DNA of 64,000 nucleotides from Streptomyces solicavernae (lineage in GTDB: Bacteria; Actinomycetota; Actinomycetes; Streptomycetales; Streptomycetaceae). Location of the stretch: assembly GCF_029968095.1 (NCBI RefSeq), contig NZ_JASCIR010000004.1, forward strand, positions 1 through 64,000, in the 5' to 3' direction. Positions within the stretch are counted from its first letter, which is position 1. Every line of letters begins with the position of its first letter. Below are positions 44,591 through 47,100 of this stretch, piece by piece. Made by a program: the position numbers and the translations under genes. The notes beneath the pieces are model-generated. The model had not been told where the DNA came from, did no database searches, and was given only the letters and a program-made list of their open reading frames with translations.

Positions 44591-45997
44591 ATGTCGGTAG
44601 GCGAAGAGATCCGCACGGAACAGGCCGGGGCTCAGCAGAGTCTGGCCACCGGCGCCGCGCGGAATCTGGCCACCACCACGAAGTCCACCCCCCAGATGCA
44701 GGAGATCAGCTCGCGCTGGCTCCTCAGGCGCCTGCCCTGGGTGCAGGTGCAGGGCGGCACGTACCGCGTGAACCGACGGCTGAGCTACTCGGTCGGCGAC
44801 GGACGCGTCACCTTCGTCAAGACCGGGGATCAGGTGCAGCTGATCCCCGCCGAGCTGGGCGAGCTGCCGGCGCTGCGGACGTACGAGGACCTGGAGGTCC
44901 TGGGCGAGCTCGCCCGCCGGTGCGAGCAGCGGGAGTTCGCGCCGGGCGAGACCCTGGCCTCGTTCGGCAGCCGGGTGGACGGCGTGTTCCTGCTCGCCCA
45001 CGGCCGCGCGGAAAAGGTCGGCTCGGGTCCCTACGGCGACGACTCGGTGCTCGGCGTCCTCGCCGACGGCTCGTACTTCGGGGACGCCTGCGTCCTCGAC
45101 CAGGAGGCCATCTGGGAGTACACGACGCGGGCCGTGACGAGCTGCACCGTGCTCGTGCTGCCCCGCCGGGAGCTCGAAGCGGTCGCGGCCGGCGCGGAGT
45201 CGCTGCGCACGCACCTCGCGCAGGTGCAGGCCATCCCGCAGCAGCGCACCAACAAGTACGGCGAGAAGGAGATCGACCTCTCGGCGGGCCACGTCGGCGA
45301 ACCGGCCATCCCGGCCACCTTCGTGGACTACGAACCGTCCCCGCGCGAGTACGAACTGAGCGTCGCCCAGACCGTGTTGCGCGTCCACACGCGCGTGGCG
45401 GACCTCTACAACCAGCCGATGAACCAGACCGAGCAGCAGCTGCGGCTCACGGTGGAGGCACTCAAGGAGCGCCAGGAGTACGAGCTGGTCAACCACCGGG
45501 AGTTCGGCCTCCTCAACAACTGCGAGTACGACCAGCGCCTCCAGCCCCACGACGGCGCGCCGAGCCCGGACGACCTGGACGAACTGCTCAGCCGCCGGCG
45601 CGGGTCCAGGCTCTTCCTCGCCCACCCGCGCGCGATCGCCGCCTTCGGCCGCGAGTGCAACAAGCGCGGCCTGTACCCGGGGAGCGTCGAGGTGGACGGC
45701 CGGCCGGTGCCGTCCTGGCGCGGCGTGCCGATCTTCCCGTGCGACAAGATCCCGGTCAGCGAGGCCGGTACGACGTCCATCATCTGTATGCGTACGGGCG
45801 AGGAGGACTCGGGCGTCGTCGGGCTGCGACAGTCCGGCCTCCCGGACGAGATCGAGCCGGGCCTCTCGGTGCGCTTCATGGGCATCAACGAGCAGGCGAT
45901 CATGTCCTATCTGGTGACGGCCTACTACTCCGCTGCGGTCCTGGTGCCCGATGCGCTGGGAATCCTGGAGAACGTCGAGATCGGGCGCTGGCGGTGA
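44591..45997 (+). CDS. Family 2B encapsulin shell protein with cNMP-binding domain
   Basis: This 468-aa protein combines a HK97-fold encapsulin with an inserted cyclic-nucleotide-binding-like domain (about residues 90-200, EVLGELARRCEQREFAPGETLASFGSRVDGVFLLAHGRAEKV then GSYFGDACVL). That layout defines family 2B encapsulins, which assemble protein nanocompartments around a cargo enzyme. The N-terminal about 35 residues look disordered. The ATG has GAGGGAGAGG upstream. The stop overlaps the polyprenyl synthase gene (GTGA), which is the likely cargo. Identification is from family knowledge. Confidence 0.88.
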   Translation: MSVGEEIRTEQAGAQQSLATGAARNLATTTKSTPQMQEISSRWLLRRLPWVQVQGGTYRVNRRLSYSVGDGRVTFVKTGDQVQLIPAELGELPALRTYEDLEVLGELARRCEQREFAPGETLASFGSRVDGVFLLAHGRAEKVGSGPYGDDSVLGVLADGSYFGDACVLDQEAIWEYTTRAVTSCTVLVLPRRELEAVAAGAESLRTHLAQVQAIPQQRTNKYGEKEIDLSAGHVGEPAIPATFVDYEPSPREYELSVAQTVLRVHTRVADLYNQPMNQTEQQLRLTVEALKERQEYELVNHREFGLLNNCEYDQRLQPHDGAPSPDDLDELLSRRRGSRLFLAHPRAIAAFGRECNKRGLYPGSVEVDGRPVPSWRGVPIFPCDKIPVSEAGTTSIICMRTGEEDSGVVGLRQSGLPDEIEPGLSVRFMGINEQAIMSYLVTAYYSAAVLVPDALGILENVEIGRWR

Positions 45998-47100
45998 GCG
46001 AGCGGATGCTGACGGTGGACGAGGCGTCCCGCACCGCCGGCGAGGTACGAGGCGCGGTTCCGCAGGCCCGCGAGGGCGGGGGCGGCGAGAGCCAGGAGGT
46101 GGCCGCGCTCCTCGACCGCACCCGGGAGGCCGTCGAGCCCGAGCTGCGCAAGGCGGTCGACTCGATGCCCGGGACGATGCGGCGGATCGTGACGTACCAC
46201 TTCGGGTGGGAGCACGCGGACGGCCGGCCCGCGGCGGGGCGGGGCGGCAAGGCGATCCGGCCGGGCCTGGTGCTGGCGGCGGCACGCGCCCTCGGCGGCT
46301 CGCCGGCGGCGGCCGTGAAGGCGGCCGCCGCGGTGGAGCTGGCCCACAACTTCACGCTGCTGCACGACGACGTGATCGACCGCGACAGCACCCGCAGACA
46401 CCGCCCCACCGCCTGGACGGTGTTCGGCGACGCGGACGCGATCCTCGCCGGTGACGCGCTGCAGGCACTGGCCCTGCGGGTGCTCGCGGACGACCAGCAC
46501 CCCGCCGCGGGGCGCGCGGCCGCACGGCTCGCCGCGTGTCTGGTGGAGCTCTGCGAGGGCCAGCACGTGGACACGGCCTTGGAGGACCGGCCCTGCGACC
46601 AGGTCACGCTCGATGAGTGCCTGGGCGTGGCAGAGGCGAAGACGGGCGCACTGCTCGGGTGCGCGTGTGCGCTCGGTGCGCTGTACGCGGGTGCGGGGGT
46701 GGAGCAGGTGGAGGCGATGGACGCCTTCGGCAGACAGGCGGGGCTCGCCTTCCAGTTGATCGACGACATCATCGGCATCTGGGGCGATCCGGCGCGCACC
46801 GGCAAGCCGGTCGGGGCGGATCTGCTGGCCGGCAAGAAGTCGCTGCCCGTGGTGGCGGCGCTCACCTCGGATGCGGCGGCCGGGGCGGAACTGGCCGAGC
46901 TGTACCCGGCGTTGAGACCGGCCGACGTGGACCGCGCCGCAGCCGCGATCGACCGCGCGGGCGGCCGCGACTGGGCCCAGACGCAGGCCGCCGACCGGAT
47001 GTCCCAGGCGGTCGCCCAACTCTCCCGGGCGATCCCGGACCCGGAGGCGGCGGGCGGCCTGCTGGCACTCGCGGAGTTCATGACGCGACGGGTGTCGTGA
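45994..47100 (+). CDS. Polyprenyl diphosphate synthase, probable encapsulin cargo
   Basis: This 368-aa prenyltransferase elongates isoprenoid diphosphates. The first Asp-rich motif DDVID (residues 125-129), the CEGQHVD motif (188-193) and a modified second motif DDIIG (257-261) are visible, as is GKAIRPGLVLAAAR. The first about 35 residues are Gly/Glu-rich and likely disordered, fitting a cargo-loading segment. The GTG start overlaps the encapsulin stop, so the two proteins are made together. Chain length and product are unknown. No terpene cyclase is adjacent. Confidence 0.88.
   Translation: MSERMLTVDEASRTAGEVRGAVPQAREGGGGESQEVAALLDRTREAVEPELRKAVDSMPGTMRRIVTYHFGWEHADGRPAAGRGGKAIRPGLVLAAARALGGSPAAAVKAAAAVELAHNFTLLHDDVIDRDSTRRHRPTAWTVFGDADAILAGDALQALALRVLADDQHPAAGRAAARLAACLVELCEGQHVDTALEDRPCDQVTLDECLGVAEAKTGALLGCACALGALYAGAGVEQVEAMDAFGRQAGLAFQLIDDIIGIWGDPARTGKPVGADLLAGKKSLPVVAALTSDAAAGAELAELYPALRPADVDRAAAAIDRAGGRDWAQTQAADRMSQAVAQLSRAIPDPEAAGGLLALAEFMTRRVS

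Follow-up and report, generated by a model that had tools for sequence, protein, structure and literature searches.

We analysed a stretch of 64,000 nucleotides from Streptomyces solicavernae (RefSeq assembly GCF_029968095.1, contig NZ_JASCIR010000004.1, positions 1 to 64,000 of the forward strand), hereafter the window, in which a Family 2B encapsulin shell protein is encoded next to a polyprenyl diphosphate synthase, the predicted cargo of the shell, the two genes sharing four bases (Table 1). Systems of this standard Family 2B kind are already known, and the pair can therefore not be claimed as a new compartment. Although the pair itself is ordinary, comparison of sequences across genomes suggests a new functional lead, a link to geosmin: the synthase may be packed in the shell and produce farnesyl diphosphate, probably to serve a cyclase, similar to geosmin synthase, whose gene is on another contig, a reading to which we give close to an even chance.

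Table 1. Positions in the window of the shell gene, the synthase gene and their parts.
Feature	Position	Strand	Basis
Family 2B encapsulin shell protein, 468 aa	44591..45997	+	ATG start; NCBIfam NF041163; PDB 9bhu
cNMP-binding-like insertion domain, shell residues 114-198	44930..45184	+	Pfam PF00027; alignment of 41 shells
SrpI-like HK97 shell domain, shell residues 216-466	45236..45988	+	Pfam PF19307
4-base overlap GTGA (shell stop TGA, synthase start GTG)	45994..45997	+	sequence
Polyprenyl diphosphate synthase, predicted cargo, 368 aa	45994..47100	+	GTG start; NCBIfam NF041169; Pfam PF00348; model
Synthase N-terminus, residues 1-30, predicted disordered	45994..46083	+	pLDDT <50
First Asp-rich motif of synthase, DDVID	46366..46380	+	sequence
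Second Asp-rich motif of synthase, DDIIG	46762..46776	+	sequence; ordinary for subfamily by comparison

The shell reading frame scored 761.3 bits against the NCBIfam model NF041163 (encap_f2b, Family 2B shell; curated cut-off 400), with Pfam matches to SrpI-like (PF19307, 455.8 bits) and cNMP_binding (PF00027, 53.4 bits). The synthase, which lies inside a longer frame of the list of open reading frames and for which the GTG at 45994 was taken as the start, scored 480.8 bits against NF041169 (f2_encap_cargo4, ‘family 2 encapsulin nanocompartment cargo protein polyprenyl transferase’; curated cut-off 450) and 193.5 bits against polyprenyl_synt (PF00348). The closest named proteins came from Streptomyces, at no more than 93% identity for the shell (the window’s own record aside) and 88% for the synthase, and most of the named relatives of both bear these same product names (best 120 listed for each); a search of a plasmid collection returned partial matches only, at 72–76% identity. 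A preliminary description, made from the sequence alone, had proposed a Family 2B shell, an overlapping prenyltransferase as its probable cargo and a tie between such shells and terpenoid enzymes; it is right on all of these, and the model scores, the Pfam matches, the shared GTGA bases, the match to solved shells with the insertion and the pairing kept within the genus confirm the two families and their association. Its suggestion of novelty does not survive: NCBI models already name both products, and polyprenyl transferase (PT) systems have been counted in print (PMC8346489).

The terpene cyclases of this genome lie elsewhere. As the preliminary description had noted of the immediate neighbourhood, no PF19086 terpene cyclase accompanies the pair: none was matched on the window’s contig, and the five matches in the genome (four genes) fall on contigs C88, C78, C56 and C9. 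Contig C88, which has no Family 2B shell, encodes a two-domain geosmin-synthase-like cyclase with the published candidate loading motif (GPTGLGTSAAR) near its C-terminus. By ‘geosmin synthase’ or geosmin-type cyclase we mean a two-domain cyclase with the motif in linker and tail, called GS-like in PMC8346489. Three Family 2B shells are encoded in the genome, on C9, C34 and C56; the C9 and C56 shells, 64–65% identical to the window’s, each adjoin a cyclase and a methyltransferase-like gene. The cyclases carry GPNGLGT (C9) and GPTGMGT (C56) ahead of their catalytic domains, and the C9 pair exceeds the NCBI thresholds set for Family 2 cargo cyclases and for geranyl diphosphate 2-C-methyltransferase. 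C78 (L079) encodes a selina-4(15),7(11)-diene synthase, which scored 609.9 bits (cut-off 450) and showed no match to the GPTGLGT-type pattern.

A class-wide sample of 197 genomes, whose members are related to one another so that a Fisher value computed from them does not stand as a probability, contained a geosmin-type cyclase in 39, and all 39 of these had a Family 2 shell match (in G243 the shell is cut by a contig end and in G313 it is matched in two pieces). The shell was of Family 2B type in 38, the exception being G167, and among the 158 genomes that lacked the cyclase only 11 had a shell match, nine to the Family 2A part only and two (G185, G271) to Family 2B. Of the 23 cyclase genomes outside Streptomyces, 22 have the cyclase adjacent to the shell or elsewhere in the same row; in the remaining one, G263, the two lie on different contigs. 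Three of the other-genus genomes (G217, G330 and G243) have one or more shells, a prenyl synthase and the cyclase on one strand, with synthase scores of 465.6, 464.7 and 462.7 bits, above the NF041169 cut-off. In G217 (L236) an IspH (LytB) gene stands between synthase and cyclase, in G243 (L250) an IspH-like frame identified by eye does so, and in G263 (L238) IspH and DXS genes follow two shells and a synthase, so that all three loci hold precursor-supply genes within Family 2B shell rows.

Further arrangements of shells were seen in this comparison. In G167 (L249:7470-8378) a shell with the SrpI-like domain and no cNMP domain, of Family 2A-like build, adjoins a geosmin-type cyclase; the insertion domain is therefore unneeded for the pairing of shell and cyclase. 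In G313 (L248) the gene adjoining the two-piece Family 2B match encodes a geosmin-type cyclase and runs on the opposite strand. Tandem Family 2B shell genes occur in G035 (L160), G018 (L162) and G088 (L256), with no prenyl synthase, geosmin-type cyclase or 2-methylisoborneol (MIB)-type cyclase in the stretch, and these are perhaps the published two-component xylulose kinase type.

The candidate loading motif was searched for as the pattern G.G[TMSV][SATEQ][ATGEVM].; of 75 geosmin-type cyclases, 74 matched in linker or tail and three in the catalytic domains. Its retention was followed in 28 genomes with the window’s type as their sole Family 2 shell, defined by a single shell match at E 1e-3 (for G274, G294 and G304, in the E 1e-40 search only) and a cyclase sequence in hand, a set from which G106 (broken reading frame) and genomes without a retrieved cyclase sequence were left out. 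The motif was found in 27 of these 28 cyclases. Shell and cyclase lie on different contigs in 20 of the genomes and at least 0.89 Mb apart on one contig in the other eight, the distance being 4.4 to 5.5 Mb in seven of those.

Within the genus, we compared 150 congeneric genomes, taking an enzyme at ≥66% identity as an orthologue (the next group reaches ≤52%). The synthase orthologue occurs in 116 and the shell, at ≥67%, in 119, a count that includes G043, whose shell sits outside the window’s clade in the tree. Since the shell gene immediately precedes 112 of the 116 orthologues and has the same orientation, the pairing is not due to chance; the remaining four are at contig ends (G130, G112 and G102) or, in G076 (L060), in the same neighbourhood with the shell gone and the synthase kept. 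No Family 2 shell match was found in G008 or G050 (E 1e-3 search), and a geosmin-type cyclase was not matched in the two G008 stretches searched. Recent horizontal arrival of the pair was considered and rejected, as sigma-factor and Na/H-exchanger clusters are near it, or near the place where it would be, in 11 of 15 compared stretches of other genomes, just as they are in the window; in the same 15 stretches an amidase is near in eight, and genes for GNAT and RibD_C occur there less often. Upstream of the shell region, the window encodes a Sigma-70 family sigma factor (38725–39864) and a PdtaS-type histidine kinase (34754–36325).

A tree of 33 shells gathered those of the window’s type into one clade of 17 members (support 100/100). 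To this clade belong shells that stand beside a geosmin-type cyclase (G051, G010) and others beside MIB-synthase-like cyclases (G053, G052), so the window’s shell type has gained cyclase neighbours more than once. The G053 (L152) and G052 (L154) shells are second copies of the type, with methyltransferase-like genes as further neighbours; their MIB-synthase-like cyclases show 37% identity.

The window’s shell protein aligned almost end to end with three solved shells that have the insertion: 9bhu (E 2e-194), 9bix (E 4e-182) and 9bje (E 1e-178). The last two contain the motifs printed for both S. lydicus Family 2B shells (PMC12407261). The cyclic nucleotide monophosphate (cNMP)-like domain precedes the main shell domain, and the N-arm ahead of it aligns with SrpI residues 7–54. 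A structure model built on a shallow alignment of 26 sequences had a mean predicted local distance difference test (pLDDT) score of 43.8 and was confident only at about residues 75–214, and it is on homology with the solved shells that the predicted HK97 fold of this protein rests.

The synthase was modelled with a mean pLDDT of 88.2, with residues 1–30 below 50 and the remainder folded. The preliminary description had seen in this protein a disordered N-terminus suited to cargo loading; the model supports the disorder, but a long tail as loading device is not supported, given that ahead of window residue 31 the longest stretch bounded by a start ranges from about 6 to 221 residues across 35 loci (34 genomes) and is ≤15 residues in six loci (five genomes), in four of which genomes a shell adjoins. 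A conserved N-terminal loading motif was likewise sought and discarded: the first conserved stretch, GxEAAxLLERxR, enters the first helix and is similar in a paralogue from the hopanoid cluster of the same genome. The second Asp-rich motif, which had been singled out as an oddity, is present as described and yet ordinary for the subfamily, reading DD[ILV]IG in all nine window-type enzymes inspected (eight linked to shells and one from the shell-less G076) and DDLLG in the hopanoid-cluster paralogue, in its solved relative 3nf2 and in four shell-row enzymes of other genera; we do not regard it as a sign of new chemistry.

The simplest account of the locus is a Family 2B shell with the product of the neighbouring gene as its predicted cargo. 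We infer a role in geosmin supply because of the rows of shell, synthase and cyclase in three actinomycetes, the co-occurrence of cyclase and shell in 39 of 39 genomes and the motif in 74 of 75 cyclases. In such a role the Family 2B shell would assemble, the polyprenyl diphosphate synthase would go inside it and its product would be the C15 compound farnesyl diphosphate; a cyclase of the geosmin type would make geosmin, entering the same kind of shell in trans. A fuller version, which we advance tentatively and hold to be somewhat less probable, makes shell and synthase a geosmin factory of Streptomyces. The shell would be of EshB type, presumably as an orthologue of EshB. It would import the distant cyclase in trans through GLGTSAAR tags, and the co-packed synthase would feed it farnesyl diphosphate. 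The ancestral arrangement, with shell, prenyl synthase, IspH and geosmin synthase in one row, would have been broken up in the genus and kept whole by some other actinomycetes.

Several observations weigh against a geosmin role. The motif does not single out the window’s shell, because all 47 cyclases of the other genomes carry it too, and G304, which has only the window’s shell type, lacks it; the G034 match is doubtful. Two other Family 2B shells of the window genome could house the cyclase, and the C88 cyclase scores 1160.9 bits, just below the cut-off of 1200 for f2_encap_cargo3, with no search naming it a geosmin synthase. In seven other geosmin rows the synthase is a more distant one (33–38% identity), placed either in the order synthase, shell, cyclase, shell (G165, G202, G232, G282, G292, G302) or behind two shells (G272), and for 12 of the 22 shell–cyclase rows of other genera a search of the stretch gave no match to a synthase. 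Enzyme trees do not place the enzymes of the geosmin rows nearer to the window’s enzyme or to the hopanoid paralogue. The residues ahead of the first Asp-rich motif are F at −5 and T at −4, which by general product-length rules would fit a C20 product as well as C15. Within the genus, the shell is kept without the enzyme in G006 (L054), G101 (L056, with a 47-residue enzyme remnant) and G141 (L057), and 34 of the 150 genomes lack an enzyme orthologue at ≥66%. As 16 of these 34 have a motif-bearing cyclase, the enzyme is not required for retention of the cyclase, so any part it has in geosmin is help and not need.

One alternative we consider a serious contender, if a less probable one than the geosmin supply proposed here: that the shell encloses the prenyl synthase only, which would provide prenyl diphosphates (C15 or C20) for general or other terpenoids, geosmin synthase being unrelated to it in this genus. 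The separation of cyclase from shell in all 28 single-shell genomes and the synthase-free rows of other genera favour this view, as does the absence of geosmin-type and MIB-type cyclases from seven stretches of about 20 kb with an intact shell–synthase pair in other congeneric genomes (L062-L068); PT systems are, moreover, an operon type of their own in the published survey (PMC8346489). It leaves unexplained, however, why the cyclase should keep its candidate loading motif in 27 of 28 genomes in which this is the sole shell, and why shell, synthase and cyclase should stand in one row in other actinomycetes.

The pair might instead be co-expressed without any packing, the shell having a developmental function, like that reported for EshA, with the synthase as a soluble neighbour. 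The uneven length of the synthase’s disordered tail would fit this, as would two published statements, that eshB (SCO5249) is up-regulated in development (PMC3878966) and that PTs are without a known loading motif (PMC8346489, in the parts of the survey available); but the near-constant pairing (112/116) and the publication of PT operons as a main Family 2B type (PMC8346489) speak against it, and we regard it as improbable. More improbable still is the proposal of the preliminary description that a ligand-gated shell compartmentalises chain elongation and is opened by a cyclic nucleotide or lipid at the insertion domain. A cNMP-type domain is indeed present. At the cassette position taken as that of Arg82, the phosphate-binding Arg of E. 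coli CRP, Trp nevertheless stands in the window’s shell and in 39 of the 40 other aligned shells, and Arg occurs in none of the 41. A 2025 paper, citing earlier work, states that the insertion domain of Family 2B shells binds no cyclic nucleotides (PMC12407261). Together, the Trp replacement and this statement make a cNMP gate of the shell unlikely, although the domain may bind some different ligand.

Were shell, prenyl synthase and geosmin synthase to share one particle, a locus of most Streptomyces would gain a function, and geosmin, the common soil odorant that gives soil its smell, would gain a place in the cell. In the literature searched, we found no paper that puts geosmin synthase into an EshB or PT shell, and published accounts of PT encapsulins, in the parts available, give neither a product or function for them nor a reason why an unlinked geosmin-type cyclase should keep the motif.

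The nearest published counterparts of the window’s pair are the PT operons of the 2021 survey by Andreas and Giessen, which counted 900 of them, 888 in Actinobacteria, and 165 operons with both a terpene cyclase and a PT (PMC8346489); a polyprenyl diphosphate synthase is also reported in eLife as the commonest neighbour of Family 2b shells (PMC8049743). Like the window, PT operons combine a shell with an internal cNMP-like domain and a neighbouring polyprenyl transferase with a disordered N-terminus, although that tail measures 50–100 residues in the survey, a descriptive figure and not a cut-off, against a predicted 30 or so here. The survey describes GPTGLGT-type motifs in cyclases as possible targeting sequences and, in the parts available, no motif in PTs (PMC8346489). 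In S. coelicolor, eshB (SCO5249), found with SCO5250, is a putative cyclic-nucleotide-binding paralogue of eshA whose promoter is up-regulated in development (PMC3878966), and it is to this shell-type gene, as a presumed orthologue, that we liken the window’s.

Shells beside cyclases provide a second set of comparisons. The eshA-mibA-mibB cluster (PMC6428758) resembles the C9 and C56 clusters of the window genome in having a shell gene beside a terpenoid cyclase, but differs from the window’s pair in its cargo, which is not a prenyl synthase but a cyclase bearing a GPxGxGT motif at the N-terminus. In clusters of geoA with cnb or encapsulin genes from cyanobacteria and myxobacteria, shell-like genes are tied to geosmin synthase (PMC7251104, PMC12224551), whereas in the window genome shell and cyclase genes lie on different contigs and a prenyl synthase is the partner of the shell. 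Within the genome itself, the hopanoid-cluster synthase (C12:420353; relative 3nf2) belongs to the same subfamily and shares the motif DD(L/I)(L/I)GIWGDP with the window’s enzyme. It differs in being only 46% identical, in scoring 413.6 bits against NF041169, below the cut-off of 450, and in lying with squalene-hopene cyclase and squalene/phytoene synthase genes on a contig that carries no Family 2B shell.

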